From a virus, in the IMG/VR virus record IMGVR_UViG_3300008448_000033, positions 21,592-85,591 of that record: 64,000 nucleotides of DNA; one strand, given 5' to 3'. Positions 21,518 through 64,000 of the stretch are shown here, one piece after another; position 1 is the first letter of the stretch, and every line of letters begins with the position of its first letter. Under the pieces are notes generated by a model, which was not told where the DNA came from, did not search any database, and saw only the letters and a list, made by a program, of their open reading frames with translations. The position numbers and the translations under genes are program-made.

Positions 21518-21668
21518 TGCATACCTTCTTTAGATTTATATCGTGCTGTAGAGTGTTAGTATACTGCGAAACATAATAGCAGTCACTTTCTTTTTTTAAG
21601 AAAATAATTCCAACAGTTACTAATGCTGCCAATATCAGCAATGGACGACCATATTTTTCAGGTATCAT
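21504..21668 (-). CDS. Small single-pass membrane protein (54 residues)
   Basis: ATG at 21668 follows GAGGGCGTAA. The product has one hydrophobic segment (RPLLILAALVTVGIIFL, about residues 8-24) and a short tail with Cys30 and Cys50. It overlaps the upstream gene by 11 bases and the polymerase start by 14, filling the gap between them exactly. That fit and the ribosome site support it. Function unknown. Confidence 0.6.
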   Translation of the reverse strand: MIPEKYGRPLLILAALVTVGIIFLKKESDCYYVSQYTNTLQHDINLKKVCNDRK

Positions 21669-24294: not shown

Positions 24295-24303
24295 TTTTAC
24301 CTC

Positions 24304-24558: not shown

Positions 24559-24575
24559 GTTTTCTCCTTTGAAAT

Positions 24576-24615
24576 AAAAACCGCTCTATGAGAGACAATC
24601 TATCATAGAGCGGTT
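24576..24615 (-). terminator. Rho-independent terminator after RNR
   Basis: Gene strand AACCGCTCTATGA, loop, TCATAGAGCGGTT then TTTATTTC: a 13-bp stem. It ends the 31.6-24.6 kb unit. Confidence 0.9.
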
Positions 24616-24634
24616 AGGTTGTAAAGCTACTTTT

Positions 24635-26494: not shown

Positions 26495-26742
26495 TAGATT
26501 ATCTCCTTTAATCTTACAACATTTTGTGCTCCAACAAGTCTTGATACTTCTTCATCATTCTCAATAACCATAAAAGTTGGAACGCCTGTGATAGCAAAAT
26601 CGTTTGCCATATCACGATTTTCATCAATATCCACTACTTCAAATTGAATATCAGAGTGGGATTCTTTTAACATATTAAAAACTGGTTTTGCTTGCTTGCA
26701 TGGATTACACCAGCTAGCACTAAACATGACGACTTTTTTCAT
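26494..26742 (-). CDS. trx: Thioredoxin
   Basis: An 82-residue minimal thioredoxin. Active site ASWCNPCKQAKP (C12 and C15), the cis-Pro segment ITGVPTFMVI and the preceding DIDENRDMA strand are present. The N-terminal strand and helix of full-length thioredoxin are missing, as in many phage versions. It abuts the class II RNR and probably reduces its C-terminal Cys pair. Confidence 0.95.
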   Translation of the reverse strand: MKKVVMFSASWCNPCKQAKPVFNMLKESHSDIQFEVVDIDENRDMANDFAITGVPTFMVIENDEEVSRLVGAQNVVRLKEII

Positions 26743-28145
26743 GAAACTTTCTTCTCCTTTTTTTGTTTCAAATATTTTTCTTTCAATGCCTTCTCTTGGT
26801 CTTTCGCGGATTTTACCAAAATATCCGTAACACTTTCAGTAGTTTGTTGCAGAACTTTTATGCTTACGTTTGATGTATCCATGAAAATTGGGAATACTAA
26901 TCCATCAGGTCCATTTCTGTTCTTAGCAACATAAAAACGTCCTTCGTTTGTATTTTTATCTTTTATTGTTCTTGAAACTGTAAAGATAAAGTCTGCAACG
27001 AAACATTTATTGAAGGCTTCAGAAATGCTCTCCATTGTAATAACTTCTGCATTAAGACCGCTTCTGTTTGTTTGTGAAGCTGTCCATACAGGGCATCCAA
27101 ATGTTTGAGCAATAGCACGAAGCTCTTCATAGATAGTCTCCAATTCGTTACGCTTTTCTTTCTGTGCGCTGATTGGTTTAATTAGATCGCCATAATCCAC
27201 AATGACCATATCAATTTTAAAATCTTTACGTCTTAATTTTTCAAGATGATTTTTGATCATATTGGTCGTTGCTGATTTAGTTGGATATTCCTTAACAATG
27301 AGCTTACCCTTAATGTCTTTGATACCATTCCAAACTTCTTCTTTGAATGTTGGTACGTCAGATAGAGGAATTCCAGTAATGCAGGAATCGTATCTAAGGG
27401 AGACAACCTTATCTTGTAGCTCTAGAGTATAGTGAACAACATTCAGACCTGCTTCCAAAGCTTTGGAACCAAGATGAACAAGTACCATGCTTTTGCCAGC
27501 ACCAGTTGGTGCAATAACTACACCAAGCTCGCCTTTGCCCAAGCCACCCTTTGAAATACCGTCAATAAGCTGCCAACCAGTAGAAACTGGATTTCTAGCC
27601 AATAACTCAAATCGCTTTTCAAAATCTAGGTGATAGTCATAACCATGATTATTGTCTGTGCCAAGCTTAATTGCGTCATTAATAACTTTACTCACCTCAT
27701 CGAATGATGAATTCTGTATAAGACCAACGGATTTAATCATAGCCTCTTTAAGCTTTTGCTTTTTACAAAAGTCAAGAGAAACATCCTTAATATGTTCTGC
27801 TCCTTCAACGCTAAAATCATTGCTTTGGATACGAGCATAATAATCTCGTACCTGTTTCTGTAGCAATTCGTTTTCAAAGCCTATATCGCTTCTAAGAATA
27901 ACAGTAATTGTATCTCTTGTTGGGTGAGTTCCATATTTCTTACGGTATTCAAAGACTTTTTGTGTGAATACACGAAGATATTTTAGTTCTAAAAAATTAA
28001 TGTCTAGGACTTCACTGATTTGGTCAGCAAACACCCGATCATCAAGAATCAAATTGACCAAGTTCTCTTGAAACTTGGTTCCAAACTTTGAAAAGTCCTG
28101 CTTTTCTTCGATAAATGACATTTTCTCTCCATCAACAGTTTTCAT
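26739..28145 (-). CDS. DnaB/gp41-like replicative helicase
   Basis: A 468-residue RecA-fold hexameric helicase. Walker A is APTGAGKS (212-219), Walker B is MVIVDYGDL, and WTASQTNRSG supplies the sensor/Arg motif region. The N-terminal about 150 residues are helical, as in DnaB. It should unwind DNA ahead of the DnaE-type polymerase. Two starts are possible: ATG 28145 (GAGGATAATGA, overlaps the flap nuclease gene by 14 bases) and ATG 28121 (TGGAGAGAAA, no overlap); the second has the better site. Confidence 0.92.
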   Translation of the reverse strand: MKTVDGEKMSFIEEKQDFSKFGTKFQENLVNLILDDRVFADQISEVLDINFLELKYLRVFTQKVFEYRKKYGTHPTRDTITVILRSDIGFENELLQKQVRDYYARIQSNDFSVEGAEHIKDVSLDFCKKQKLKEAMIKSVGLIQNSSFDEVSKVINDAIKLGTDNNHGYDYHLDFEKRFELLARNPVSTGWQLIDGISKGGLGKGELGVVIAPTGAGKSMVLVHLGSKALEAGLNVVHYTLELQDKVVSLRYDSCITGIPLSDVPTFKEEVWNGIKDIKGKLIVKEYPTKSATTNMIKNHLEKLRRKDFKIDMVIVDYGDLIKPISAQKEKRNELETIYEELRAIAQTFGCPVWTASQTNRSGLNAEVITMESISEAFNKCFVADFIFTVSRTIKDKNTNEGRFYVAKNRNGPDGLVFPIFMDTSNVSIKVLQQTTESVTDILVKSAKDQEKALKEKYLKQKKEKKVS

Positions 28146-50043: not shown

Positions 50044-51318
50044 TTATGTTATTGAATAGCTGCTAGTATTTTCATTCACCGCTATTAATCTAAAGCCTGT
50101 ATTTGGTGCCGCAGCTGCGCTTATTGTTACCCAAACTGCCGATGAACTTACTTCCATGTCTACAGCGACTAAATCATTTATCCATCTACCATTTTCATCA
50201 ATCATAACGTCAGCCGTAATATAGTTGAAATCTGCTGTTGGAAAAGCTGTTTTACCGCTTTCTTGAGTCAGCGGTAAAGAACCAGACCATTCGCCATTCA
50301 CATCAAGAGTACCACTATATTGAAATCTTAAAGCCTTATACGCACTTTGAACTGAAGCTGCTGATAGTCCTGCGTTTGTTAAGGCGGTATCAATTGCATG
50401 TAGGGCAGTGTCTAAATTAACAACATTATAAGTTACACCCTCTACAGTAACATTACTTGGTGTAAGTGAAATATTTGTAAAACTAGCAGAGGTGTGCAGA
50501 GAAGCAGTAGCAGCAATGGTTAGACTAGAATTAACTGCAACACCAGCTGAACCGCTAATTAATACTGGCTTTAATTTATTAACAACTAGATCTGCCGAAG
50601 ATGGTGTTCCGCCTATTGTTTTTTGAAATTGCCAATCGCTACTTGAACTTACCCACAGCAATGAGGCAGTTTCGTAATTACCTCGATTTACATAAAGACC
50701 ACCAGTAGCCGAATCATAAGCGGCTTCACTTCCGCTTACTTTATTTACAACTATAATATTATCTTTGACTTCTAATACTTCTGTATTTATAATAGTTGGT
50801 GTTCCTCGCACAGTCATGTTACCCTGTACGTCTAAATCACCTATAATTATGGCATCGCCACCTACAGTTAAATCGCCACCAGCCTGCAAAGCAGAAGAAC
50901 CGCTGATACTGCCGCCTGTTACTGATAAAGAACCGTTCCCGCCAACTGTTATAGAACCACTAGTTGTGGTAGAACCGGTGAGTTGAGTGCTAACTCTTGA
51001 TCTAAGAGCGCCGACATTGTTCGCACCAGCGACAAGATCGCCTGTTATGCTTGCTCCACCACTGTTAACAGTAATACCATTAGAATTAACAACTAAACCA
51101 GTGTTATTGTTAATAGTTACGCCACCATTATTAACAATTAAACCAGAAGCACCAGTAACTGCAATTGCGGATGCACTTAAAGGAACGTTTATAGTTACTT
51201 TACCTGTTGCCAATGATCCTGACGCTTCAAAAATTACATCATTACCATCAACTTTTTGTAAATTTTGTTTTGCGTTTAAATCAGTTAAAGACCTAACTTT
51301 TCTTCTAGTAGTAGCCAT
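50044..51318 (-). CDS. Fibre-like structural protein A
   Basis: A 424-residue Gly/Ser/Thr/Asn-rich protein. Residues about 40-200 are beta-repeat units (GLIVNNGGVTINNNTGLVVN, then DLDVQGNMTVRG and VEVKDNIIVVN-type strands) as in phage fibre shafts. The last 100 residues (325-424, from SAYKALRFQY) form a domain shared with the two downstream/upstream fibre genes. The N terminus RSLTDLNAKQNLQKVDGN also resembles fibre B. It probably decorates the tail or head; receptor binding is possible. Own late-type box and GAGGAATAAAAT. Confidence 0.7.
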   Translation of the reverse strand: MATTRRKVRSLTDLNAKQNLQKVDGNDVIFEASGSLATGKVTINVPLSASAIAVTGASGLIVNNGGVTINNNTGLVVNSNGITVNSGGASITGDLVAGANNVGALRSRVSTQLTGSTTTSGSITVGGNGSLSVTGGSISGSSALQAGGDLTVGGDAIIIGDLDVQGNMTVRGTPTIINTEVLEVKDNIIVVNKVSGSEAAYDSATGGLYVNRGNYETASLLWVSSSSDWQFQKTIGGTPSSADLVVNKLKPVLISGSAGVAVNSSLTIAATASLHTSASFTNISLTPSNVTVEGVTYNVVNLDTALHAIDTALTNAGLSAASVQSAYKALRFQYSGTLDVNGEWSGSLPLTQESGKTAFPTADFNYITADVMIDENGRWINDLVAVDMEVSSSAVWVTISAAAAPNTGFRLIAVNENTSSYSIT

Positions 51319-51340
51319 ATTTTATTCCTCTGTTATTTTT

Positions 51341-51352
51341 ATAAATAGTATT
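51341..51352 (-). promoter_or_regulatory. Late-promoter-like box 5
   Basis: Gene strand TTAATACTATTTATAAA, 23 bases before ATG 51318, at the stop of the upstream gene. Confidence 0.5.
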
Positions 51353-51884
51353 AAGAAACATCATAAGCAGTTGGATTTTCGTTGATCGCCAATAATTTAT
51401 AAGAACCAGATGTTGCTATATCTGGGGCGTACATACCAACATATACTTGTGATGCGCTAGTAAATAATTCATATGCTATGATATCATTAGCCCAATTTGC
51501 AGAACCACTTTCTTTAACCATCAAATTAATAATAAAATAATCTTGATCTGCAACAGGAAATGATGCACTCCCGTATTGTGTTAATGGTAAGGCTTCTTCA
51601 GCGTATCCTTCTGCGTCGAAAGTTCCAGTAACTTTATATCTTAATTTTTTATAATTTGCATTAACAACAGAAGTGCTTGCGCCGCCACCAGATGAAGCGG
51701 ATATATTAGTTAAATATCTACCGTCACCAACAAAAAAAGAAGCAGTTATTGGAAGAGAAGAACTAACAGTACCATTATTTAAAGTTCCTGATATTCTAAA
51801 AAGAATATTACCATCAAGATCTTGTTTAATGACTTGTTTTCTAGTTAAGAGATCCGTAAGAACTTTTACAGGCTTAACTGCCAT
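51351..51884 (-). CDS. Fibre-like structural protein B (short)
   Basis: A 177-residue protein made of the shared N-terminal segment (KPVKVLTDLLTRKQVIKQDL) and the shared C-terminal domain (76-177: ANYKKLRYKVTGTFD, ending YKLLAINENPTAYDVS) with no repeat shaft. It aligns by eye with the last 100 residues of protein A. It may be the minimal form from which the longer fibres grew, or a capping subunit. ATAGAGGAATAATTA precedes the ATG. Confidence 0.65.
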   Translation of the reverse strand: MAVKPVKVLTDLLTRKQVIKQDLDGNILFRISGTLNNGTVSSSLPITASFFVGDGRYLTNISASSGGGASTSVVNANYKKLRYKVTGTFDAEGYAEEALPLTQYGSASFPVADQDYFIINLMVKESGSANWANDIIAYELFTSASQVYVGMYAPDIATSGSYKLLAINENPTAYDVS

Positions 51885-51887
51885 TAA

Positions 51888-52142
51888 TTATTCCTCTATA
51901 CCGTATTGCCTCTTTATTTCTTTAAGATTTTTAAGAAATTCTGGCTGTATGCCTTGCAAACGAGCTTTTTTATTTAATATATCTTTAATTAGTTCCAATT
52001 GATGTTTTTGGGAATTTAAAATGTATAAAGCTTCTTCTTTGGAAATTTTTTCTTTATCTATTCTAACTCGAAATTCTTTTAATTTTGTTCTCAACAAGTA
52101 AACCCAATTTGCAACTTGTATGAAATTAAAACTAGACTTCAT
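51888..52142 (-). CDS. Hypothetical helical protein
   Basis: About 84 residues from ATG 52142; a TTG at 52166 would lengthen it but has no site. Helical and basic (RTKLKEFRVRIDKEKISKEE, then IKDILNKKARLQGIQ). It overlaps the upstream gene by 11 bases. Possibly a small assembly factor for the fibre genes around it. Confidence 0.55.
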   Translation of the reverse strand: MKSSFNFIQVANWVYLLRTKLKEFRVRIDKEKISKEEALYILNSQKHQLELIKDILNKKARLQGIQPEFLKNLKEIKRQYGIEE

Positions 52143-52335
52143 ATTCTTCTTCGCTTTCTGCCTCAATTTCTGCTATAATTTTGTCATATTTTTTATACAT
52201 TTTATCTACTTCATCTAATATTTCCTGTTTATTTTTCATCAGGATTGATTGAGATTTTATGTCTTTAACGTGTGATAAAATTAACTTTGTCATTTCGTCA
52301 AAATCTTTTAATAAATATGTAATTTTACGTTTCAT
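52132..52335 (-). CDS. Hypothetical coiled-coil protein
   Basis: A 67-residue helical protein (EILDEVDKMYKKYDKIIAEI) with acidic end (EAESEEEYEV). First gene after the terminator/late-box pair at 52350-52393, with TTTTGAGGTATTT before the ATG. It is placed like a small structural or assembly protein. Confidence 0.55.
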   Translation of the reverse strand: MKRKITYLLKDFDEMTKLILSHVKDIKSQSILMKNKQEILDEVDKMYKKYDKIIAEIEAESEEEYEV

Positions 52336-52349
52336 AAATACCTCAAAAT

Positions 52350-52360
52350 ATAAATAGTAT
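52350..52360 (-). promoter_or_regulatory. Late-promoter-like box 6
   Basis: Gene strand ATACTATTTATATTTT directly after the T run of the terminator and 15 bases before ATG 52335. Confidence 0.55.
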
Positions 52361-52393
52361 AAAAAAAACAGGGTGGCACTTTAAGCCACCCTG
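52361..52393 (-). terminator. Rho-independent terminator after fibre C
   Basis: Gene strand CAGGGTGGC-TTAAAGT-GCCACCCTG followed by eight T: a strong 9-bp GC-rich stem. Confidence 0.93.
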
Positions 52394-52418
52394 CTAAAAT
52401 AAATTTTAAATTATTTTA

Positions 52419-53603
52419 TTATTCAAATGGCTTTTCGTTAACAACAATTAAACGAATTTCTGTGTTTGTTGAGGCTGCTGGAGCGTCAATCACGATATAT
52501 GGATACCATGCAGTATCACCACCTGCGCCTTGTGAAGCAGTTATTTTAACGCTTGTTAGGTCATTAAGCCAACCGTCGTCGCTACGAACGGCAACATCAA
52601 TTGAAAGATATCTTGCTTCGTTAATAACTGTGCTTGCCGTGGCATTGGAAATTTGAACATAACCACCAGTAACGTATGCCGTGCTCATAGAGCCAGCATC
52701 AAGATTACCAGAAAGAATAACTCTAATACCGTCTTGTCCTGATGTCTTTACACCCTGCACGGCAGAACGTCTGTTGTTATATGTTTCTGTTGATACACCG
52801 CTATTTACTTGTCCCTCTAAGCCTTCAATCTCGCCACCAAGAGCAATTAGCGATTGCGTGAGGTCAAATAAAGAACCAGTAGTAAGACCAAACCTTCCAT
52901 ATTGCGTATTTGATTTTATTAATACAGTTCCGCTAAGGCTTGTTGAACCGCTGACTACTAAGCCAGTAAGATGACCAACGCTTGTTAGCGACGATCCTAC
53001 AACATTAGATCCTAGTGCAGTCGCGGATAGAACTTCTGTACCACTAATTTTAAATATCTTACCGCTTGCAAGATCTAAGTTTTCACTCGATTTAAATGCG
53101 GTTGAAGCATGATTATATTGAAATCTTGCTAATCCATCGCTTCCTGAACCGACAGAAAAACCTGCACCGTTAGCATCAGATAGGGTGGTGCTACCACTTG
53201 CTAATGCAAGCGATAAATCTCCAATATTAACTGTTGAAGAATCAACGCTTGTGGTAGTGCCTTTAACTCTAAGATTCCCAACAACAGTTAAATCGCCGCC
53301 GATTGAAGCAGCATTTGTAACGTCTAACGAACTTGCGCTAACTTGAACTGCGCTAGCGTTTAAAGCAGCACCAGTTACCGTTACGCCATTAGCAGCGGTA
53401 ACTAAACCACCGGCTTTTACTTCACCGGAGCTACTAAGTGCGCTACCTGTAATTGCAAAATCAGTACTACCAATTTGCGTAGAGGTAATCGCGGTATTAC
53501 CACCAATACTTAAACTACCATTACCGCCTACAGATAATGAGCCGCTTGTGCCTAACGCGCCAGATACTTGTAGATCAGTTAAAATTTTTAATGGATTTGC
53601 CAT
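52419..53603 (-). CDS. Fibre-like structural protein C
   Basis: A 394-residue fibre-like protein. N terminus NPLKILTDLQVSGALGTSGS shares the K-[IV]-L-T-D-L motif with proteins B and the 990-residue fibre. Beta-repeat shaft about 20-225 (SIGGDLTVVGNLRVKG and similar). The C-terminal about 110 residues (SAVQGVKTSGQD... RLIVVNEKP) are related to the terminal domain of proteins A and B. Ribosome site CCGAGGAAAATAGAA, late-type box about 45 bases upstream. Confidence 0.7.
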   Translation of the reverse strand: MANPLKILTDLQVSGALGTSGSLSVGGNGSLSIGGNTAITSTQIGSTDFAITGSALSSSGEVKAGGLVTAANGVTVTGAALNASAVQVSASSLDVTNAASIGGDLTVVGNLRVKGTTTSVDSSTVNIGDLSLALASGSTTLSDANGAGFSVGSGSDGLARFQYNHASTAFKSSENLDLASGKIFKISGTEVLSATALGSNVVGSSLTSVGHLTGLVVSGSTSLSGTVLIKSNTQYGRFGLTTGSLFDLTQSLIALGGEIEGLEGQVNSGVSTETYNNRRSAVQGVKTSGQDGIRVILSGNLDAGSMSTAYVTGGYVQISNATASTVINEARYLSIDVAVRSDDGWLNDLTSVKITASQGAGGDTAWYPYIVIDAPAASTNTEIRLIVVNEKPFE

Positions 53604-53647
53604 TTCTATTTTCCTCGGTCAAAGACCAACTATGTTTATTTCTTTTA

Positions 53648-53660
53648 ATAAATAGTATTT
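53648..53660 (-). promoter_or_regulatory. Late-promoter-like box 7
   Basis: Gene strand AAATACTATTTATTAAA, 45 bases before ATG 53603 of fibre C. Confidence 0.5.
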
Positions 53661-53670
53661 TATTTTTACA

Positions 53671-54765
53671 TTAACCAATTATTGTTACAACATATTTAAC
53701 GCCGATATTTAATGGGTCTGGAGGATCACCAGTATCTATAGTAATCGTATTTAAATCAGTAAAACTAATACCAACCTCAAGTTTTTCGTAATCGTCAGCT
53801 GCGCTATTGGATCTAACGGATACGTACATATCTCTTGTATTCAAGTTATGTTGAATTACATATGTATTTTCTGTAGAATTGCCTATAAAAAATGTTTTTT
53901 TAATTGCAGTTACAGATTCGCCAACAATATTAGATTCTGATGGTTGTCTTTTTCTTGGCTCCGCTTTTCTTGTCTCTAAGATTATATTTTCTTTGGGTAA
54001 TTTGACAGAAACAGCATTTTCACTGGTTATAACGTTAGGCTCATTTTGAGATTTTCCATCACCGATCAGATACCCAGTTACTTTAACTGTTAGTTTTGTA
54101 ACATATTGTCTCTCTTCGGATTCTAGCGATACAGCACCCTCTTCTATTTCAAAATTACCACCCATAAATGATTCAAACCGATAGCCATCATGTTCTATTA
54201 AAAAATGCTTTACTGCCCTTGTAGTAGAAATAAAAGGGTGTATAATATCATTCATTTGCTGTAAATAATTTGTTTTTATAGATATTGTATAGTCAACATT
54301 AACATAAACAGGCAATCTAATTGATTTTGTTTGATAGACAATTTGTGGAGTTTTTGTTAAAGCATAATTTAATTTTTTTGTACCCTTATACGCAGCATTA
54401 TTTGCGTATTTTGATGTTTTTTCTTGATTGATTACTTGAGAGAAACCTATTCTATCAAATCCCGGTATATTGGCTTGAAATGCGCCCTTAACGCTTGCAG
54501 GATCTTTTTCTATACCTCCTCTCTCTACAGAAATAAAAGGCGCTATGAGAGTTCCATCCTGATCTCGTAAATCTTTATAATTTTTTATCTGAAATGCTCT
54601 TTCGGCAGAGGCCCATATAACAGGTACTTTTCTAAAACCTTCATTTGTTGTTACTCTTGGATCAATTTTTTTATCCACCCAATTAAACAAAGCAAAATCA
54701 ATTGTTTCTAAAGTACATGGTTTTATGTTATCTATAAATTTTTCTTCTGGTGTGTTACTTTGCAT
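53671..54765 (-). CDS. Tail terminator/neck protein with fused C-terminal domain
   Basis: A 364-residue protein. The part to about 265 has PCTLETIDFALFNWVDKK, VIWASAERAFQIKN and IRLPVYVNVDYTISIKTNYL, a pattern of tail-sheath stabiliser/neck proteins (T4 gp15-type position). A basic linker leads to a C-terminal beta domain (IGNSTENTYVIQHNLNTRDM, ending VGVKYVVTIIG-like) often attached to phage surface proteins. It overlaps the next gene by 11 bases. The role is assigned from pattern and position. Confidence 0.6.
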   Translation of the reverse strand: MQSNTPEEKFIDNIKPCTLETIDFALFNWVDKKIDPRVTTNEGFRKVPVIWASAERAFQIKNYKDLRDQDGTLIAPFISVERGGIEKDPASVKGAFQANIPGFDRIGFSQVINQEKTSKYANNAAYKGTKKLNYALTKTPQIVYQTKSIRLPVYVNVDYTISIKTNYLQQMNDIIHPFISTTRAVKHFLIEHDGYRFESFMGGNFEIEEGAVSLESEERQYVTKLTVKVTGYLIGDGKSQNEPNVITSENAVSVKLPKENIILETRKAEPRKRQPSESNIVGESVTAIKKTFFIGNSTENTYVIQHNLNTRDMYVSVRSNSAADDYEKLEVGISFTDLNTITIDTGDPPDPLNIGVKYVVTIIG

Positions 54766-55255
54766 TAAATACTCCTTCGCGTGCTTTCACACATTCTGCT
54801 TCTATTTCAAATTTATGGTCTGTTTGACCAAATAATTGCTTTGGTTCATTTAAGGTAACTATTTCATAAAAAGAGTCACCATATCTTATAAAATCGCCTT
54901 CTCTTACAAATAAATTCTGATCTTCTGTGAGCCTTCTTTTGTGAAAGTGAATTTTTATAGATGGTCTTTTATCAATGCCAAATTTAGTTGTAGTTGTTTT
55001 TATACCTTCCCATTCAATTAAAACATTGATTTTTATTGGAGATAGGAACGTTTTACGCAACGATTCTCCATATAAAGGATGATAATTGGTTGTTTCAAGA
55101 TCTATTGGATAGTAAACAATTGTCTGTCCAATAACTCTTTCAATTAATTCATCATTTATTTGTTTAACAAAGTCTCGTTCTTTTTTACCCGTAAATAAAG
55201 GTGGTGGTGGAGCATCAACTTGCTGAATTATATCTTCTTTCTTTTTTCTAGGCAT
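54755..55255 (-). CDS. Head-tail neck/completion protein
   Basis: A 166-residue protein with YYPIDLETTNYHPLYGESLR, IKIHFHKRRLTEDQNLFVRE then GDFIRYGDSFYEIVTLNEPK. This is a conserved connector protein of T4-like aquatic phages in the position of gp14/gp3. The fold appears a small beta barrel as in head-closure proteins. It sits between gp13-like and gp15-like genes. Confidence 0.6.
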   Translation of the reverse strand: MPRKKKEDIIQQVDAPPPPLFTGKKERDFVKQINDELIERVIGQTIVYYPIDLETTNYHPLYGESLRKTFLSPIKINVLIEWEGIKTTTTKFGIDKRPSIKIHFHKRRLTEDQNLFVREGDFIRYGDSFYEIVTLNEPKQLFGQTDHKFEIEAECVKAREGVFNAK

Positions 55256-55261
55256 ATTTTA

Positions 55262-56548
55262 TTATCCAACAAATATTAATGTGGGTATGAATGTCTGAGC
55301 TTTTGTAGCATCTTCAAGAATCTTTGCATTTTCTTCGCCAAGCTTTGAGTAGACCATTTCTGCTAATGTTGTTTTTAATTCTTCCCTTAAATCCTTTTGC
55401 TCGCCCTGTCCCTGTGTTATTAGATCATTGCCATTCAATTGAACTGTTTCGCCGGGGATTGGAATACTGCCGAATTTGCTTCTAACGTAGCCTAACATTT
55501 CTTTGCTTAATGCAAGAGCATATCTGCGAATCCATTGTTTACCAATAGAATTGATTTTATCGTATGGTATATTTTGAAATGGTATTGTATTCATATTGTT
55601 AATACCATCAACTCCCGTTTTTCCTCTGGTTCCTTCATCCCAAGCATCAGTTGCAATAACAAATTCAACATACATATTATCAGGACTCATTATGTTAGGA
55701 GTTGGAAATATTCTTAAATAATTATCTTTAATTTGGTATGAATAATCAGATACTCTTGTTTTAATCGCATCTTCATAAGCCATAGCTTGTAATTTATTTT
55801 GCCAAGCTGGAATTATCTCAAACGTGCTATCATCAGCATATTGACCATAAGTACTTAAATTACCTACAACGTTAAGGCCACCGAAATAACCATAGAAATT
55901 CCATGATGCACCGGGGGTTTTATAATAAACTTTTTTAATCAATATTCTTTTATTTTGTATTTTATTATAAAAATCTTTATCGGCATTTAATGAAGAGCTA
56001 TAAATTATTGTTTGCAAATCATAGTCTTGAACATCTATTTGAGGAGTAAAAGAAGCTGAATAAATAGGAGTCGTGCCACCAAGACCTATTTCGGTTGCTA
56101 CAGAATTTGCTATTTTCTTTAAGTAAGAGAATGTAAAATTTGGAAATTTCAAACTAAGATGAGTGCTGCCCGTGATATCAGATCCAGTTAATTGACCTTT
56201 AGAATCAAAAGTTCCTGTTGATTGTCCTAATATAAATGGTAATACGTTTTTACTCTGATGAGTGTTGACAATATAGGAATACTCTAATACTGATTCTTCA
56301 TACGCTGCGTATACTTGTTGCTCTGTAATTTCTAGGTCAAGGACATCACCGCCTAGCTTTTTATATACATAACTAACCTGCTCGACTGCACCTTGTTTAA
56401 ACGCATTTATTTGCTCGCTTGACCAATATGTTGGTGAGACATACACACCAAATGGTAATGATGAAGAAACAACATTACCAGTTGAGCCTGTTACTGGTAG
56501 AATAACTTTGCTCATTTGCGATGTTGGAGTTAAAATTGGTAGCGACAT
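55262..56548 (-). CDS. Neck protein (gp13-like)
   Basis: A 428-residue protein. The C-terminal half (WIRRYALALSKEMLGYVRSK, then IPIPGETVQLNGNDLITQGQ) is the conserved core of T4-like neck/adaptor proteins. The N-terminal part has a Ser/Thr-rich beta stretch. AGAGGATAATAA precedes the ATG. Upstream is the capsid terminator, so this begins the tail-completion unit, though no clear late-type box is present in the 150-base gap. Confidence 0.7.
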   Translation of the reverse strand: MSLPILTPTSQMSKVILPVTGSTGNVVSSSLPFGVYVSPTYWSSEQINAFKQGAVEQVSYVYKKLGGDVLDLEITEQQVYAAYEESVLEYSYIVNTHQSKNVLPFILGQSTGTFDSKGQLTGSDITGSTHLSLKFPNFTFSYLKKIANSVATEIGLGGTTPIYSASFTPQIDVQDYDLQTIIYSSSLNADKDFYNKIQNKRILIKKVYYKTPGASWNFYGYFGGLNVVGNLSTYGQYADDSTFEIIPAWQNKLQAMAYEDAIKTRVSDYSYQIKDNYLRIFPTPNIMSPDNMYVEFVIATDAWDEGTRGKTGVDGINNMNTIPFQNIPYDKINSIGKQWIRRYALALSKEMLGYVRSKFGSIPIPGETVQLNGNDLITQGQGEQKDLREELKTTLAEMVYSKLGEENAKILEDATKAQTFIPTLIFVG

Positions 56549-56644
56549 TTATTATCCTCTTATAAAATATCTAAAATTTTGCTTTTCTTCTTATCTATGC
56601 TCAATAATATAGATTAATTAGTTTTCTTTTAAGTTTAAAGCAAT

Positions 56645-56673
56645 AAAAAACCCCGCTTCTTTTGGAAGCGGGG
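56645..56673 (-). terminator. Rho-independent terminator after major capsid gene
   Basis: Gene strand CCCCGCTTC-CAAAA-GAAGCGGGG followed by TTTTTTATT: a 9-bp stem. The rest of the 56549-56698 gap is AT-rich and shows no gene. Confidence 0.94.
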
Positions 56674-56698
56674 AGCTTTTCAGCTTTTAATTTTTACT

Positions 56699-58591
56699 TT
56701 AGCCTTCTAGATCGCGGACAACAACTAGACCGTACATATCTGGTCTAACCATCGCTTTGCCGTAACGAGTCATAACAGCTTTGCGTGGTACGAAGGTTGA
56801 AGGATCGAAGATGGTTGGTGTGGTTTGTAGTGGGACATAAGGAGCGTAAACATAACCGCTCTCTAGGAATGAGCCACCTTTACGACCAACTAGGATTACG
56901 TTGCGTAGGAAGTATGGATCTACGATAACATCCCACTTCTTTGATAGTTCACCGACCTTAACTGCGCCAACTGAACCTTTTTCAGCTTCGTGAGTTACTG
57001 AAGCGCGGAAGCCAGCGGTGAATTCAAGGATGTTTGCAACTTCTGGTGAGACAACGAGGAAGTTTGCACCGCCGCGTAATGTCTTACGATAGATAGCTGC
57101 TGATACATCGTTGATTGTTTCAACTAGGGTTTCATACCACATTGAAACGTTACCGGTGAAATCAGGAGGAGCAGCATAATCTGTTGATGCTGCGCTTGAA
57201 CCTAGAACGTCAGTACCAGTCTTACGGTTCAAGAATTTACCGGGACGGCGTGACCAGTATAGAGTACCTGCGGTTGAACCCTTGACTAGATCGTTTAGAA
57301 TTTCTTGGTCAATTTCAAGACCAATTTGTTCTGATAGAATGCTGGTCAATTCAACTTCGGCGTCGAGGTTGTGATAAGCATTCAAATCTTGACCTAATTC
57401 TGGGGTCCAGCTTGCCTTGAGCTTGCGTGATTGAGCAGTGATTGAGAAGCTGTCAACCTTTAATTCTAGTTCTGGTAGATTTGCAGAACCTTCAAGAACC
57501 ATACCTTGATTGCTGTTATCACCTTTCAAGATACCAAGTTGATCTTGTGCTGTACCAACGGTGCTGATACGATCTTTAACTGGGAATTGTAGAACGATAT
57601 TGCCAGCTGGACTTGAAGCGCGTGCTGAACCACCAACTAGTGTGCTACCTTCTGTTTTTGCAGCAGAAGCTAAACCAGAAGTTGTACCAACTAGAACAAA
57701 TTCTAGATATTTTGTACCAGCGGTATCATTAGTGACACCCGATCTACCCTTACCTTCAACGATACGGCTCAAACGACGAACAACGTTGACAGCACCAGAG
57801 CTACCTGATAGTGTAAGAGCAGCATTTGAAGAGACGGAACCAGTAACGATTGAGAGCGAAACTAAATCATTGACTGCAACTAACTCAAATGAAGCATCCG
57901 CCGCAGCTAATGTCGCAACTGGAGCGCGAACAACAAGTGCTGTTTTTGTTGTTTCACTTAGCAAGTCTGGGTCAAAACGAATGTATGAACCACCCGATTC
58001 AAGCGAAGATGATGAGCCTAGATCGACAACTTTAGTGATTGCAAAAGAAGTACCGTCACCGAATGATGCTGACGCACGGGCACGACCATAACCGCTCATT
58101 AATGAGTAGAAACCAGCTTCTACTAATTCTTTGCCAGCTGAATCACGGCCATCTAAACGAACACCGCCTGTTAATTGGACACCAAGGCGATCACCGAAAA
58201 CAGATGAATTTTGTGCCATAACTTCATCGTTAGCAAAACCTAGTCTTTCACCTCTTCTGAAGTCGAGGAAGAATACTAGACCTGATGGTAAGCTCATTGG
58301 TTGGACTGAAACTAGATCGTTAGCAATCAAACCAGCGAATACACGGCGAACGATGGGGAATGCTACAGCGGCGAAACCTTGTACGTCACCACCACCCATT
58401 GAGTTAGCTTCTTTCAATAGTTCTTGTGCTTGGTTCTCAAGCAAACGTGCCATAGTGCTTTTCTTGTGTTCTGTGTTCAAGCCTTCTAATAGACCTGATT
58501 TTTCCCATTTGCCAACGAGGGCTTGGGTTTCCTTTAGTACGTTGCGTTCAACAACGCCTTCAGTTAGTGTTTCTAAAATATTTTTTGACAT
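56699..58591 (-). CDS. Major capsid protein (gp23-like)
   Basis: About 630 residues from ATG 58591 (GGAG eight bases upstream); ATG at 58603 would add four residues without a site. The segment ALVGKWEKSGLLEGL, then TMARLLENQAQELLKEAN and DVQGFAAVAFPIVRRVFAGL, IANDLVSVQPMSLPSGLVFF follows T4 gp23 closely. It is HK97-fold, cleaved in T4 by the prohead protease; possible [IL]-x-E sites here include LLEG and LLKEA in the first about 65 residues. The gene looks richer in G/C than its neighbours, as often seen for very highly expressed capsid genes. Confidence 0.95.
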   Translation of the reverse strand: MSKNILETLTEGVVERNVLKETQALVGKWEKSGLLEGLNTEHKKSTMARLLENQAQELLKEANSMGGGDVQGFAAVAFPIVRRVFAGLIANDLVSVQPMSLPSGLVFFLDFRRGERLGFANDEVMAQNSSVFGDRLGVQLTGGVRLDGRDSAGKELVEAGFYSLMSGYGRARASASFGDGTSFAITKVVDLGSSSSLESGGSYIRFDPDLLSETTKTALVVRAPVATLAAADASFELVAVNDLVSLSIVTGSVSSNAALTLSGSSGAVNVVRRLSRIVEGKGRSGVTNDTAGTKYLEFVLVGTTSGLASAAKTEGSTLVGGSARASSPAGNIVLQFPVKDRISTVGTAQDQLGILKGDNSNQGMVLEGSANLPELELKVDSFSITAQSRKLKASWTPELGQDLNAYHNLDAEVELTSILSEQIGLEIDQEILNDLVKGSTAGTLYWSRRPGKFLNRKTGTDVLGSSAASTDYAAPPDFTGNVSMWYETLVETINDVSAAIYRKTLRGGANFLVVSPEVANILEFTAGFRASVTHEAEKGSVGAVKVGELSKKWDVIVDPYFLRNVILVGRKGGSFLESGYVYAPYVPLQTTPTIFDPSTFVPRKAVMTRYGKAMVRPDMYGLVVVRDLEG

Positions 58592-58624
58592 TTTATTCTC
58601 CATAAACCTTTATAGGTTGTAATT

Positions 58625-60064
58625 TTATTTTTTGTTAATACCTGCTAAAATCTTCATACGTTCTGATTGCGGACTTGCTTCTTGACTTGTTCTTGAACGA
58701 ACCAAGAACGGACTTGCACCTGATCGTGAAACTGCTTCGTTTAGTGATTTCGGTGCTTTAACTTCGATCTTAGCACCTTCCACCGCACTTTGAAGTGTTT
58801 CAAAAGCGATTTTGGCTGTTTCAACCGTTTCTGTTTTAGCAATAGATTCGACAATCATCTTTTTTTGTCGCTCATTCAAGGAGATATTTTCTAAAACACG
58901 GTTTGTATATAGTAATTTAGCATTTGAAAGATTCATTCTTTCAATATGTTCCTTAAGGGAACCAAGCATGTTTTTCAAATCTAAATTTTCTTTCTTTAAT
59001 TCTTCGTTTCTTTTTTTTGTTTTTGCAATTTGCTTATCGCTTTCTTCAACTGCGTCTTGCAAATGTTTTAATTCTTCTTTATATTTATCATCTTTACGGT
59101 GAGCTAATTCATTTGCTACCGCTTCTCTTGTTTCTTTTGTTGTGACACCACGATGACCAGTTGGAACATTTTTTGTATCCACTTCTACTGTTGTTTCTTC
59201 TTCTAATTCACCATATTGTGGTTCCATACTTACTTCGTCTTGTTCTTCTTCACCAAAATTGACCATCATATCTTCGTCTTGTTCTTCGCCTTCTTCGTCC
59301 ATAGATACCAATAAGTCTTCGCTTACATCTGCGTCCGGTTCTGGATCAACAGCGCCATCATTCATTAAAGCTGCTAAATTTTCATCATATTCTTCTTGCC
59401 CTTCTTCATATCCAGCAGGTTCAATAAATTCTGGACCTTCGCCAAAACCGGCACCAGCTTCATCTAGATCTTTTTCATAAAATTCAAACATTTCATCTTC
59501 ATCTAGAGCTTCTGGCGAATAATAGCCTTCACCTTCTTCTAAATCTTGATCGCCTTCATCTGCGTTTTCGTCTTCGTCAACATCATAAGACATTGATTCT
59601 GCTAATGCTGGTGCTGCGGGTGTTGGGATACCAGTTGGTGCTGCCCCCATAGCTGGCATGCTTGTCATTGGAAGCATACCACCACCAGTTTGCATAGCTG
59701 GCTCTTCTTCTTGTTCAATTTCTGGTGTTTGTTTCTTAAGTTCTGAAAAATCTATTTCGATCATTTGCTTATCGTCATCTGTCATATAGGAATCAGGTGT
59801 TTTTTCAACTAAATCCTTTTCTATACGAGATTTTTCTTTTTTTGACGATAAATCTGATGGAGTATTTTCTAAAGCACTAGCTGCATCCATTGGATCTTCT
59901 TTTGGCTCAACAGGTTCGGCTTGTTCTTCTTGTTCTAATAATTTATCTACTGCTTCTTTGATTTGATGAGAGTATTTTTCGACCAAATCCTTTTCAGCAC
60001 TTTTGATAGCCGCTTGTCTAAGGGCGGTTGCGTCAACGATGGCTTGTTCCAATAGTGATGACAT
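58625..60064 (-). CDS. Prohead core scaffold protein
   Basis: About 479 residues from ATG 60064 (GGAGAAATTA upstream); the longer frame begins with TTG and no site. The N terminus SSLLEQAIVDATALRQAA is amphipathic. The centre (about 90-310) is very acidic and low-complexity; the C-terminal part (about 320-440) is a long coiled coil (ELKKENLDLKNMLGSLKEHI, LLYTNRVLENISLNERQKKM) typical of T4-like core proteins (gp22 position). It directly precedes the major capsid gene. A late-type box is 31 bases upstream. Confidence 0.8.
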   Translation of the reverse strand: MSSLLEQAIVDATALRQAAIKSAEKDLVEKYSHQIKEAVDKLLEQEEQAEPVEPKEDPMDAASALENTPSDLSSKKEKSRIEKDLVEKTPDSYMTDDDKQMIEIDFSELKKQTPEIEQEEEPAMQTGGGMLPMTSMPAMGAAPTGIPTPAAPALAESMSYDVDEDENADEGDQDLEEGEGYYSPEALDEDEMFEFYEKDLDEAGAGFGEGPEFIEPAGYEEGQEEYDENLAALMNDGAVDPEPDADVSEDLLVSMDEEGEEQDEDMMVNFGEEEQDEVSMEPQYGELEEETTVEVDTKNVPTGHRGVTTKETREAVANELAHRKDDKYKEELKHLQDAVEESDKQIAKTKKRNEELKKENLDLKNMLGSLKEHIERMNLSNAKLLYTNRVLENISLNERQKKMIVESIAKTETVETAKIAFETLQSAVEGAKIEVKAPKSLNEAVSRSGASPFLVRSRTSQEASPQSERMKILAGINKK

Positions 60065-60094
60065 TAATTTCTCCAAAACGCATTAATATTTTAA

Positions 60095-60103
60095 TTAAAT
60101 AGT
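60095..60103 (-). promoter_or_regulatory. Late-promoter-like box 8
   Basis: Gene strand TACACTATTTAATTAA, 31 bases before the scaffold ATG. It differs by one base (ATTTAA for ATTTAT) from the main form. Confidence 0.4.
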
Positions 60104-60123
60104 GTACAATAATTCTAAATGAC

Positions 60124-60426
60124 TTAATCTGTTATATTTTTTGGTCGTGCTGTATTCTTTCTTTTCTTTTTTGGTGCCTCAATTGCTTCTTTATTCATTT
60201 CTTCATTGTATTTTTTAGAATTTCTAAGGCGATTGATTCTTTTTTGTCTTTCTTTAATTGATTTTTTTGTAAATCTTCTTGACATTGCAGAATTTTCATA
60301 TAAATAATATACTAAAGAGTCCTTACTACATTCTTTTAAGAATCTTTTAATCAAATTTTCTGTTGATTCTGCTGAAGGTCTAACTCCCGGTGGTAAACTA
60401 ACTGATAATAGTGCTGCTCTCGACAT
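60124..60426 (-). CDS. Ribosomal protein bS21-like
   Basis: A 100-residue basic protein. STENLIKRFLKECSKDSLVY then YENSAMSRRFTKKSIKERQK follows the bS21 order: an E-x-x-x-x-R-F-K-R-x-x-x-K helix, a Y-E-K-P-[ST]-like turn, and a basic Arg/Lys helix. The usual R-K-R-K cluster and the P of E-K-P are altered, so the match is moderate. Phage-borne bS21 is known in large aquatic phages, where it may bias translation towards phage messages. Its place beside capsid genes could instead mean a head protein. Confidence 0.45.
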   Translation of the reverse strand: MSRAALLSVSLPPGVRPSAESTENLIKRFLKECSKDSLVYYLYENSAMSRRFTKKSIKERQKRINRLRNSKKYNEEMNKEAIEAPKKKRKNTARPKNITD

Positions 60427-60434
60427 TTTATGCT

Positions 60435-60827
60435 CTACTTTCTGCCATTCATGGCATTTAAAATTTTATTCCATTGACCAGCGCTTTCGCTGATCATATC
60501 TTTTACTTTAACTTCTCTTTGAGTCTCCGGTACTTTAACTTCATTAATTGGTGTTGTTCCGTCAAATGGGTTAAAGCCTGTTCCTCCCATATCAAAACCA
60601 AGTTTTTTGTTTTTTTCTACAACTTCTTTTTTAAATACTTTATTATAATCTACTTTTTGTTTTAATTTTGGTTTCTGCTCAGATTCTTGTCTTTTTTGAA
60701 CAATTTTTTCTTCTTTGACAAGTTCTTGAGAGTCTGTTAAAGTTTTTAAACCTTCTTCTAAAAGAACTTCACGAATACATTCTTTAATTAGCGGTTTAAT
60801 TATTTTTTTTAATTCTTGTTTATCCAT
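60435..60827 (-). CDS. Small protein with head-targeting-like leader
   Basis: A 130-residue protein starting at ATG 60827 behind ACGAGGTTAAT. The leader MDKQELKKIIKPLIKECIRE is amphipathic and contains IKE and then LLEEG, in line with the leader group. A Lys/Glu linker and a conserved-looking FDMGGTGFNPFDGTTP segment follow. It is encoded just upstream of the scaffold, in the capsid unit, so a head role is likely. Confidence 0.6.
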   Translation of the reverse strand: MDKQELKKIIKPLIKECIREVLLEEGLKTLTDSQELVKEEKIVQKRQESEQKPKLKQKVDYNKVFKKEVVEKNKKLGFDMGGTGFNPFDGTTPINEVKVPETQREVKVKDMISESAGQWNKILNAMNGRK

Positions 60828-60857
60828 ATTAACCTCGTAAAATATTATTATACTACT

Positions 60858-63830
60858 TTATATAAACCACCACCAAAGATCTGTTGCGTTTATAAACATA
60901 GCAATAGCTGTAAAAAAAGTATACCATGTTATACCAGAGCTACTGCTTACTGCATGAAATGCTTCATATCCATTGCCTGCAATAGTGTGCGTGGCTAAAG
61001 AATTATTTATTTTTTGACCAGCTGCTGCATGAATAGTGGCATTAGTATTTTTTAAATTTTTCATATATATCATAATACCATCAATATTTGTTATGCTCGG
61101 TAAACCATAATCAGCGTTATTGCCATTATCTAAGTATACCATAGAAGAAACGGCAGAAGCAGATTGACCACTTGCGGTTAAGAATAAATATGAATGTGCG
61201 ATATTTGAGGCTAAGATATTTGTTAATTGTGAACCATTACCAATAAATGAACCAGTTCCAACTAGTTTAACACCACCAGCAGAAATATCTAGGTTGCCGC
61301 TATTATTGCTAATTGTTGTTGCGGCGACACCAGCAGTTGGTGAAGCAATAGAAATAGATCCGCTGCCTACAAATATTTCTTTAAATGGTTTATCGCTTGA
61401 GCCAAGTGAATAAGAAGAGGAAGAATTTGGAACTATACTTCCGCCAACTTGGATACCGTTAGAAGCAGTTAACTGTCCTGTTACCGTTGTTGTATCTGTT
61501 GATTGATCGCCTAATTGAACATTTCCGCTGACAATTAATGTACCTTGTGAAGTTAATGATGTTAAGGTGAGATTTGGGTTTACAGTAATCTCTAATTCGT
61601 TTGTTTGTTGAACTACATTTATGGTTGATGTGCTTTTTAAACTACGTAAATAACCAGTTCCATTATTAACATCTCTTACAAGAGACTCGCCAGACCCAGT
61701 AGATTCTAACGAAGTTATAGGAGATCCGCCACCGCCGCCTTGAACAGCTGAAATAATTTCTTGTAAAGAAATAAAACCATCAGGTGAAAAAAAATCTATT
61801 CCATCGTTCCATATACTTATACCTGAAGAGCTGTTAAATAAATCAATTATGTCGTTATCTCTATTATATGTGCTGCTTGAGAGATGCCCAATAATTATTT
61901 CAGCGTTTGATACGCCAAAAGAGTCTTTAAACAAAGAACCAGATTCATAACTTCCATTACCGTATCCATTAGAAGAAAGATCGTATTCTGCTTCACCAAC
62001 AACAAGATTGCCATTGACTTTATAACCATTATTAGATGTAATAGAATCTAAAACTGTTACATCTTCTGCAAAGAATGGAATTTTTGTCTCGGTTTTAATA
62101 TTGTAATATATTTCTCTATTGTCAAGTAAAGATCCTTGTTGATTAACAATAGGTAAATCAGTATATTTATAACCTGTTACATCGTCTAATTGAATATCAT
62201 ATGGAACATAGTTTGAAGAGGTTATAGAAGCGGTTATTGGCAAAACGTGCGTATAGGCAACCGTTGAATTATAAACATAAAAAGGAGGATATGCTCCGCT
62301 AATATATACATTACTTAAATCTAACTGGCTTTGAACTTTTAGATATGAATTTTGATTTATTATGAAAAACTTATCAGCTTCTAAACTACCAGAAAAATAG
62401 TGACTGCCGGTTGGAGGACCGTCACCGCGATAATAAAAATCTATATTGCTTTCGTACGCATCAATAATTCTACTAAAAGGACCAACAAAATATGAATCAG
62501 GATAATAAGTTATCGAGCTATCGTACGAAATTATATAGCCACTTTTACAAACAAAATTTGGGGAGAAACTAAGGCCAACATTGCTAACTACTAAATAATC
62601 TCCAATAGAACTATAATAAAACTTTTTTGGTCCAATACAAGCATTTATGTTGCTTAATGTACCGTTTACGTCTTTAAAAGTAGAATACTCAAAACTTAAA
62701 TTTTTATAACCAATTAAAGATAAACGAGCGTTATTAAAAAAACATCCTAGAAAATTTAACTTATCCGCCTGAGCAAAATTTGTTATATTTAGCGTACCGC
62801 TTGCTCCATAGATATAACCATTCACAAATTGCATATACGGAGGTGTTATAAAGTTTACCGTTCCGCTATTAACGATTTGGCAGTTATAAGCAAAAATCTC
62901 ATCTCTTGATACTGAAACATATTTTTGGTTTGATAAATATTCAAGATTGTTTGGAGGGCCAGAAAAACCACCAAAACCAAGACAACTTTCTCCATTATCA
63001 AATGCTAATATACGAATCGTATCGTATGCTATCGCACCATTGATACCGGCAGTGCGAAAGAAGCCTTTTACTTCTGTTGCTGGTTTGACAATATCAACTG
63101 TTTGGTTTATATCGTTATTTCCAAATCCAACCGAGCTTATATAAAAATTACTACCAGAGTGTGAAGTGATTACTGCTGTTCTATAGCCATCATTGGATAT
63201 AAGAAAGCAGCCAGTTAATGAATTTTCTGTTGGTTGTGAACCTGTAAATGTTAATTTAATTCCGCACTGAACACCATTATTAATTCCAACATCTGGATCG
63301 ATAGTCAATGCCCCGGTAGTTGGTACATTAGAATATAATGTTTCTCTTTCGCCAATAAATTTAACTAAAAGATTACTATCACTTTTGCCTATACCTTTGT
63401 TAACAAGATTAACAGTTTCTTCGTACGAACCGCTTGCTATGTTTATTGTTACATGAAAGACTTCTCTATCATTTGTTGTTGCGTTTAACGTAGCTAATTT
63501 GTCAACCGCTGCTTGAATTGTTAACAAGGCAGAACCACTTGTTAAACCAGTATTATTATTTGAACCATTTTTTGAAACATAAACATTTGTTGTGCTGTTG
63601 TTAACAAAAGCAGCACCAGACAAATTTAATGTTCCTGCATTTATTGTAACAGTATCTATTGAACTGCTGCCTAAAATAACGTTATTATGAAAATAAGCAT
63701 TAGCATGAACATCTAGTGTATCTACATTACCATCATTATTTTCTAATGGTGTACCAATAGTAAAGGTATCTTTGGCTGTTGAAGCCATATTAAGACCACC
63801 AGAAACCGTTAATGTAGTTAATACTTTCAT
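60858..63830 (-). CDS. Large beta-helix tail fibre/tailspike-like protein
   Basis: About 990 residues from ATG 63830, chosen because MKVLTTLTVSGGLN matches the N-terminal motif of fibres B and C; a GTG at 63848 would overlap the upstream gene by 17 bases. Residues about 85-125 (VYVSKNGSNNNTGLTSGSAL, then TIQAAVDKL) are the start pattern of a pectate-lyase-like right-handed beta-helix, which continues to about 560. A Gly-rich break (QGGGGGSP, about 700) precedes repeat shaft and a C-terminal domain. Likely receptor-binding or glycan-degrading; no catalytic residues can be placed. Confidence 0.75.
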   Translation of the reverse strand: MKVLTTLTVSGGLNMASTAKDTFTIGTPLENNDGNVDTLDVHANAYFHNNVILGSSSIDTVTINAGTLNLSGAAFVNNSTTNVYVSKNGSNNNTGLTSGSALLTIQAAVDKLATLNATTNDREVFHVTINIASGSYEETVNLVNKGIGKSDSNLLVKFIGERETLYSNVPTTGALTIDPDVGINNGVQCGIKLTFTGSQPTENSLTGCFLISNDGYRTAVITSHSGSNFYISSVGFGNNDINQTVDIVKPATEVKGFFRTAGINGAIAYDTIRILAFDNGESCLGFGGFSGPPNNLEYLSNQKYVSVSRDEIFAYNCQIVNSGTVNFITPPYMQFVNGYIYGASGTLNITNFAQADKLNFLGCFFNNARLSLIGYKNLSFEYSTFKDVNGTLSNINACIGPKKFYYSSIGDYLVVSNVGLSFSPNFVCKSGYIISYDSSITYYPDSYFVGPFSRIIDAYESNIDFYYRGDGPPTGSHYFSGSLEADKFFIINQNSYLKVQSQLDLSNVYISGAYPPFYVYNSTVAYTHVLPITASITSSNYVPYDIQLDDVTGYKYTDLPIVNQQGSLLDNREIYYNIKTETKIPFFAEDVTVLDSITSNNGYKVNGNLVVGEAEYDLSSNGYGNGSYESGSLFKDSFGVSNAEIIIGHLSSSTYNRDNDIIDLFNSSSGISIWNDGIDFFSPDGFISLQEIISAVQGGGGGSPITSLESTGSGESLVRDVNNGTGYLRSLKSTSTINVVQQTNELEITVNPNLTLTSLTSQGTLIVSGNVQLGDQSTDTTTVTGQLTASNGIQVGGSIVPNSSSSYSLGSSDKPFKEIFVGSGSISIASPTAGVAATTISNNSGNLDISAGGVKLVGTGSFIGNGSQLTNILASNIAHSYLFLTASGQSASAVSSMVYLDNGNNADYGLPSITNIDGIMIYMKNLKNTNATIHAAAGQKINNSLATHTIAGNGYEAFHAVSSSSGITWYTFFTAIAMFINATDLWWWFI

Positions 63831-63831
63831 T

Positions 63832-64000
63832 TTAGCCGATACCTGCACTACCGCTGTAGGCTACAGTTAAATCTGCATGTTGAATGCCAGTTAATTCCGC
63901 TACAACATATACTCCAGTTGTATTGTTGCCAGAGTCTGCACCTAATAAATATATTTTATCTGTTTTCACACGCATTTCTACGCTATAAATATTTTTTCCA
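63832..64000 (-). CDS. C-terminal end of a structural protein (partial)
   Basis: The frame runs in from the right edge and stops with TAA at 63832-63834, one base before the fibre ATG. The 55 visible residues (MRVKTDKIYLLGADSGNNTT, ending VAYSGSAGIG) are beta-rich with Gly/Thr/Asn bias, fitting a fibre or virion decoration protein. Too short to identify. Confidence 0.5.
   Translation of the reverse strand, partial: GKNIYSVEMRVKTDKIYLLGADSGNNTTGVYVVAELTGIQHADLTVAYSGSAGIG

Follow-up and report, generated by a model that had tools for sequence, protein, structure and literature searches.

A probable set of modular, recombining fibre proteins in a T4-like phage

We analysed a window of 64,000 nucleotides (positions 21,592 to 85,591 of the IMG/VR virus record IMGVR_UViG_3300008448_000033, a contig of 85,591 bases) that encodes four fibre-like proteins, here called A, B, C and the long fibre of 996 amino acids (aa) (Table 1). 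All long genes of this region lie on the minus strand and, in order of transcription, encode the long fibre, two small proteins, a 483-aa protein, the major capsid protein gp23 (PF07068, 237 bits), gp13-, gp14- and gp15-like proteins, fibre A, a 67-aa open reading frame (ORF), a 92-aa protein, B, C, the sheath protein gp18 and a product that, by its position, we take to be the tube protein. The gp13-like protein matched PHROG head-tail adaptors and the gp14-like protein PHROG head closure proteins (E 0.0025). Named phages searched for DNA close to 24 kb of the window gave no match. The original prediction, which gave correct positions for all four genes, had read them as an adhesion set diversified by swapping shafts between fixed attachment and tip modules. 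Our results suggest that they probably form a modular, recombining set of virion fibres of a T4-like phage, one of a group of uncultured phages that carry such a kit, with swaps at module edges.

Table 1. Positions of the fibre set and of adjoining features in the window.
Feature	Position	Strand	Remark
Long fibre, 996 aa from GTG (990 aa from ATG at 63830)	60858..63848	-	
Long fibre, head-locus anchor, residues 6-97	63558-63833		
Long fibre, large middle module, residues 67-600	62049-63650		no knob
gp15-like protein, 364 aa, predicted tail terminator	53671..54765	-	after gp13-/gp14-like genes; weak match to PF16724
gp15 core, residues 1-270	54765-53956	-	
gp15 added C-terminal decoration-like domain, residues 276-364	53940-53674	-	PHROG head-decoration families
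Fibre A, 394 aa	52419..53603	-	
A, MANPLKILT anchor	53603-53514		followed by shaft
A, mid domain, residues 100-205	52989-53306		
A, knob, residues 293-390	52434-52727		
TSGSLxVGGNGxL patch in A, 5' edge of exchanged shaft	53510..53560	-	DNA identity to relatives stops at 53510
Stretch of A replaced in L006	52462..53510	-	identity lost except in 97-bp patch 53409-53313
Small charged protein, 67-aa ORF	52132..52335	-	
Conserved 92-aa small protein, cassette marker	51888..52166	-	directly before B; 9 aligned, 24 contigs
Fibre-like protein B, 177 aa	51351..51884	-	
B, anchor, residues 1-49	51738-51884		followed by Gly/Ser linker
B, knob, residues 77-169	51378-51656		
Fibre C, 424 aa	50044..51318	-	
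C, anchor, residues 1-50	51169-51318		followed by shaft
C, mid domain, residues 157-263	50530-50850		
C, knob, residues 326-416	50071-50343		
TSGSLxVGGNGxL copy in C	50926..50976	-	extra shaft segment of L005 directly behind
Block common to the window and L005, 81-85% DNA identity	50042..52418	-	gap 51111-50928

A, B and C have in common a C-terminal domain of ~95 residues, which we call the knob, and end in RLIVVNE, KLLAINE and RLIAVNE, respectively. BLASTP aligned the C-termini of B and C (37% identity over 111 aa, E 2e-22) and A with C (25% over 395 columns, E 6e-13), and linked A to B through the KxLTDL stretch alone (E 0.06). Profile comparison of the tails with hhalign joined all pairs (A-B, E 7e-9, P 95.8; A-C, E 3e-9, P 96.1; B-C, E 3e-31, P 99.9), and a hidden Markov model built from nine B and C tails, with A excluded, matched the A of the window at E 1e-8. 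The original prediction had claimed this domain and had named, as grounds for dropping the claim, a lack of significant terminal-domain similarity in profile comparison; the profile tests are significant, so those grounds did not arise, and the domain is borne out by both the hhalign results and the A-free model. Across an alignment of 62 knobs (66 non-redundant copies minus four), the single invariant column is the Asn of W-x-N-D-L, with R14, F41, D66 and A85 nearly invariant. The knob profile had no match among PDB sequences at E up to 1, the best Pfam match of any member had an E value of 0.02, and three PHROG families were each matched by 1 of the 62 members (best E 8e-4). Knob matches number from 2 to 6 in each of nine IMG contigs, including that of the window; one of those in G005 is split. 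We looked for a knob in the long fibre and no copy is present. Treating the four proteins as one four-member family was rejected, as the long fibre is without a knob and has an anchor that forms a separate class, weakly linked to that of A.

An AlphaFold2 model of the knob, made from B, covers 109 residues with a mean pLDDT (predicted local distance difference test) of 93.9 and a pTM (predicted template modelling score) of 0.84. The modelled fold begins with a helix, continues mostly in strands and is read as a beta sandwich. Foldseek gave no knob match under E 0.001 in the PDB, where the best was the C-terminus of an R-type pyocin fibre (E 0.012), and one such match in BFVD, to an unnamed entry (E 6e-4). 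A second aligner ranked residues 163-285 of T4 gp9 first (Z 7.7 over 92 residues, 3.5 Å, 9% identity), followed, at Z 5.4-6.2, by C-terminal tailspike domains of Pam1 and Sf6. A model of the whole of C was good in the knob and weak in the shaft (mean pLDDT 65.7 overall), too weak there for a structure search.

At the N-terminus, B and C share an anchor of ~50 residues (BLASTP, 38% over 47 aa, E 2e-6; hhalign, E 2e-10), and A, the long fibre and the proteins of further relatives have a short motif only in common. For the motif test, set proteins were defined by the knob alone, to avoid circularity, with other ORFs of at least 100 aa as controls. Within the first 30 residues, the pattern first proposed, K[IV]LT[DT]L, is present in 16 of 63 knob proteins versus 0 of 285 other ORFs, and a relaxed form, [KR][IVLS]1-2-L-[TAGS]-x-[LVI], in 49 of 63 versus 3 of 285 (p 4e-43); further inside the proteins the relaxed form occurs 3 times in 26,068 residues. 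The motif is thus real and far above chance, with two corrections to the earlier account: the anchor of C had been overlooked, and the long fibre shares the short motif only. Anchors of the A class match those of a third class, found in relatives, at E 5e-11. The long-fibre anchor profile matches A anchors (E 1e-5, P 82) and has no match to those of B and C; pairwise, the long fibre has no hit to the others better than E 0.003.

Relatives came from scans with B (14 loci), A (11 loci) and the 92-aa protein (24 contigs); among the latter, L056 is nearly identical to the window and L075/L076 are near copies. In all 24 contigs the B anchor opens the ORF that follows the 92-aa gene. Together with the motif counts, this provides the conserved N-terminal element expected of modular, anchor-type fibre systems. 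Behind that anchor the proteins at the B position vary from 66 to 1011 aa and from 0 to 3 knobs, with at least one full or partial knob in 19 of 24, three in two and none in 5 of 24. The knob lies directly behind the anchor in four proteins (L023:4598-7975, L026:16707-17651, L027:18841-20117 and L028:10928-13930), and in the first of these a ConA-like lectin follows the knob (PF13385, E 1e-12). The 66-aa ORF at the B position in L059 (L059:10274-10474) is an anchor without a knob, a truncated or decayed copy. The 92-aa protein itself shows 40-86% identity between lineages and may help in assembly; neither it nor the 67-aa protein (the two together at 51888-52335, between A and B) had a notable family match. 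In two contigs a pair of neighbouring ORFs of 376-384 aa that look related to each other lies between A and the 92-aa gene (L071:7530-9806 and L077:7526-9828); by eye only, they resemble glycosyltransferases.

Family scans covered 75 set proteins (76 non-redundant less one near copy). Pfam recognised a YadA stalk in four, bactofilin in three, a lectin in one and collagen in one, and the PHROG matches were to virion structural, tail-spike and tail-fibre families. Neither Pfam nor PHROGs returned a T4gp10-like branching domain in these proteins, in scans of a kind that misses remote likeness, and Pfam gave no match to a fibritin-type coiled coil or foldon. The mid domain of A matched two families of cyanophage virion structural proteins (phrog_6002, E 1e-18; phrog_30158, E 4e-10), and tblastn with A aligned its middle part only, in 26 phage records, nearly all of cyanophages.

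Recombination at module edges, for which the original prediction had proposed nucleotide comparison as a check, is visible as breaks within A and at the ends of a gene block. Compared with the relative L006, DNA identity is 76-79% on both sides of the A shaft and, inside A, is lost from 53510 (codon 32) to 52462 (14 codons before the end), bar a 97-bp patch; the A protein of L006 has 776 aa versus 394 aa in the window. A second relative, L005, belongs to another lineage; its gp15 is 45% identical to that of the window, and its other upstream genes have no BLASTP match there. From 52418, one base past the A stop codon, L005 is 85% identical to the window and, after a gap at 51111-50928, 81% identical down to 50042, the C stop codon, a block of 2.4 kb. 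The gp15 tree joins the window with L006 (100/100) and rejects the window with L005 (p 4e-121), and the tree of the 92-aa protein plus B anchor rejects the window with L006 (p 0.004; approximately unbiased (AU) tests on groups picked after the identities were known). A TSGSLxVGGNGxL patch, present in 8 of 78 set proteins versus 0 of 359 others, lies at two exchange edges: the A protein of L006 has it twice, 142 residues apart, flanking its extra segment, and in the C protein of L005 the extra segment follows directly behind it. In the long fibre, the first ~90 residues (its anchor) recur at 54-64% identity on otherwise unrelated proteins of 332 and 346 aa at the same place in two other phages, and residues 68-599 align at 30% identity (E 2e-49) with a protein from a different locus that has another anchor and a knob. 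This middle module has no Pfam family at E up to 1 and no PDB sequence match, and looks like a beta-helix by eye only.

Shafts, genes and the whole kit are thus swapped between viruses, and the horizontal exchange of distal parts that characterizes modular fibre systems is evident from DNA breaks at module edges and conflicting trees. A fixed attachment end and an exchangeable shaft, as originally claimed, are upheld by the 24 B anchors, the DNA of L006 and L005 and the partners of the long fibre. The fixed tip, in the form originally claimed, finds no support: the shared C-terminal domain can be internal or tandem and is absent from the long fibre and from 5 of 24 proteins at the B position.

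In the explanation that we favour, each protein would dock by a short N-terminal peptide, extended in B and C to the ~50-residue anchor. Behind it would come a shaft that differs widely in type and length between proteins and, mostly, at least one beta-sandwich knob of ~95 residues, and recombination at module edges, partly at the TSGSLxVGGNGxL patch, would swap shafts, genes and the cassette. The modules are shared, exchanges have occurred, the knob fold is confident and an extended gp15 is in constant company with the set. The proteins are presumably trimeric fibres on the virion, with the N-terminal peptide as the likely docking element. We infer their fibre nature from the PHROG matches to tail-spike, tail-fibre and virion structural families, from the YadA, collagen and lectin matches and from the structural neighbours of the knob (gp9, tailspikes and a pyocin fibre). 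An adhesion role would fit the lectin in 1 of 75 and the YadA stalk in 4 of 75 set proteins.

Several points weigh against this explanation. The likeness of the A anchor to B anchors rests on ~12 residues, and the groups in the AU tests were chosen in hindsight. Z values that are all below 8 do not prove kinship, and the resemblance to gp9 may reflect a common arrangement only. Lastly, the knob of A changes fast, as would suit a tip that binds receptors: of its last 60 residues, the 55-58 that align are 43-49% identical.

The gp15-like protein is a probable tail terminator: it matches PF16724 (T4-gp15_tss) at E 4e-4 and 20 bits, under the cut-off of 25, 1 of 10 aligned homologues matches that family, and in the window it occupies the expected place between gp14 and the sheath (gp13-gp14-gp15-(fibres)-gp18). 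The T4 order is gp13-14-15-16-17-18, and marine-type relatives have a lone gp15 ahead of the sheath gene. Our gp15 scan took the best 80 of 576 loci plus 2 in bacterial bins and is not a survey. Within these 82 loci, the added domain is present in 9, all of which have knob genes within the next four ORFs, versus 0 of the 73 plain gp15 loci, where the sheath ORF is next or next but one in 63. Among contigs with both regions readable (G005, G008 and G009), all three have gp14 followed directly by the sheath gene, with gp15 and the kit elsewhere. The domain-bearing gp15s form one clade (support 74/92), and their link with the kit is therefore one event; we rejected the correlation between added domain and fibres as independent evidence because of this single clade. 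Distant homologues of gp15 found by tblastn include those of Flavobacterium phage immuto and Microcystis phage Mel-JY01, both of which have no knob copy.

gp15 is present once per contig, apart from tandem cores inside one ORF in two of the contigs counted. The core is doubled in L070, L075/L076 and L078; it would be unusual for a terminator ring to hold double the number of domains. The tandem-core ORFs (L070:6068-8062, L075:2668-4683 and L078:3560-5569) have 664-671 aa and carry the added domain at the end only. In two other loci gp15 is plain and the added domain is encoded by a small gene immediately behind it (L066:8169-8495 and L067:7877-8188).

The chances are evenly balanced that the set consists of ordinary baseplate side fibres and that the gp15 linkage is an accident of one ancient rearrangement. 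The block adjoins genes that by eye look like baseplate genes in L005-, L026- and L027-like contigs, the knob resembles a T4 baseplate protein, gp9, and the gp15 link is a single event; however, the link has survived tandem duplication of gp15, splitting of its domain and relocation. Rather less likely is a location at the neck, with the added domain of gp15 as a platform and A, B and C as whisker-like fibres docked on the tail terminator. The tight company of extended gp15 and fibre genes, their joint departure from the gp13-gp14-gp18 operon in the three readable contigs and the single gp15 per contig would all suit such fibres. In T4, gp15 is in contact with fibritin (PMC3004832), and the five neck fibres of phage A-1(L) are attached to a neck ring, which in turn adjoins the terminator (PMC10966104). 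Yet gene order is not contact, the link amounts to one event, and the block of the other lineage lies at the end of baseplate-looking genes (by eye). A neck site is possible by analogy with T4 fibritin and A-1(L), and the gene order of the other lineage would suit the baseplate as well. More speculative still, and in our estimate improbable, is that gp15 gained a decoration domain that made the neck ring a docking platform for interchangeable neck fibres, with the knob as coupling piece and the set moving with or beside the platform.

In comparison with L006, rough dN/dS values (ratios of nonsynonymous to synonymous rates, with dS near 1) were 0.06 for the B knob and 0.09 for the C knob; gp14 gave 0.04, the gp15 core 0.10, the domain added to gp15 0.37 and the sheath 0.12. 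Against L005 the values were 0.06 and 0.04 for the B and C knobs. Few parts of the compared virion genes are as conserved as the knobs of B and C, a pattern unlike that of a variable tip for receptor binding; these knobs behave like structural parts. It is rather unlikely, to the same degree as a neck location, that the knob is a conserved receptor-binding tip whose reach and spacing are set by the shafts, as the original prediction held. Its C-terminal position in A, B, C and most relatives at the B position would suit a tip, as would the tailspike and pyocin-fibre C-terminal domains among its fold neighbours and the divergence of the A knob, but strong purifying selection on the B and C knobs, internal or tandem copies, the five knobless proteins and a lectin behind the knob in another protein all speak against one. 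Because of the internal and tandem copies, the lectin behind the knob in L023 and the low dN/dS, the B and C knobs would instead be structural end-caps or docking modules. Host contact would then lie in the exchanged shafts, in lectin-bearing and large middle modules and in the faster-changing knob of A. Duplication followed by plain divergence, without module exchange, would account for B and C as neighbours with homologous ends but is very improbable given the sharp DNA breaks inside A between conserved flanks, the disagreement of the trees and a middle module that recurs with another anchor in front; it would require assembly errors to have made the breaks in several unrelated contigs.

Other parts of the window encode, on the minus strand, a GroEL-type chaperonin of 542 aa (7336-8964; phrog_5725, E 3e-140) and, by PHROG matches in 18086-28145, a DNA polymerase (18086-21517), a ribonucleotide reductase (24635-26494) and a DnaB-like helicase (26739-28145). 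Tandem repeats of 15, 21 and 30 bases occur at 14319-14500, within the ORF 13867-14853.

The modular fibre set provides a fibre domain, as yet unnamed, whose fold is confident and of which 62 copies were aligned, together with a phage contig family whose DNA directly displays the edges of fibre recombination. It also advises caution before a C-terminal domain that is conserved is named a receptor-binding tip. If the gp15 link reflects contact, neck fibres, which have a little-understood role, would become accessible to genetics. Searches of the open-access literature listed no description of the cassette or the knob domain.

Among known systems, two reports describe receptor-binding proteins of Klebsiella and E. 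coli phages that keep N-terminal anchors and exchange distal domains (PMC6872550, PMC10408124). The set described here resembles those in its fixed N-terminal attachment, in a short conserved peptide across several proteins per phage and in distal parts swapped next to conserved DNA. Unlike them, B and C also keep a C-terminal domain, which is unnamed and can be internal or repeated, and the scans recognised no T4gp10-like domain for branching. A neck gene with fibre genes next to it recalls T4 fibritin and the neck fibres of the Anabaena myophage A-1(L), in both of which a terminator lies close to the fibre base (PMC3004832, PMC10966104), whereas no coiled-coil fibritin or bead-chain proteins were recognised in this set. 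The best structural neighbour of the knob is the C-terminal domain of the long-tail-fibre connector T4 gp9 (residues 163-285), at a Z below the level of relatedness and with no sequence match. Cyanophage virion structural proteins (phrog_6002 and phrog_30158) match the mid domain of A, but not its anchor or knob. The principle of a kept anchor and a swapped distal part is already known from enterobacterial phages; new in detail are a knob that is conserved yet changes place within the proteins, and its association with an extended gp15.

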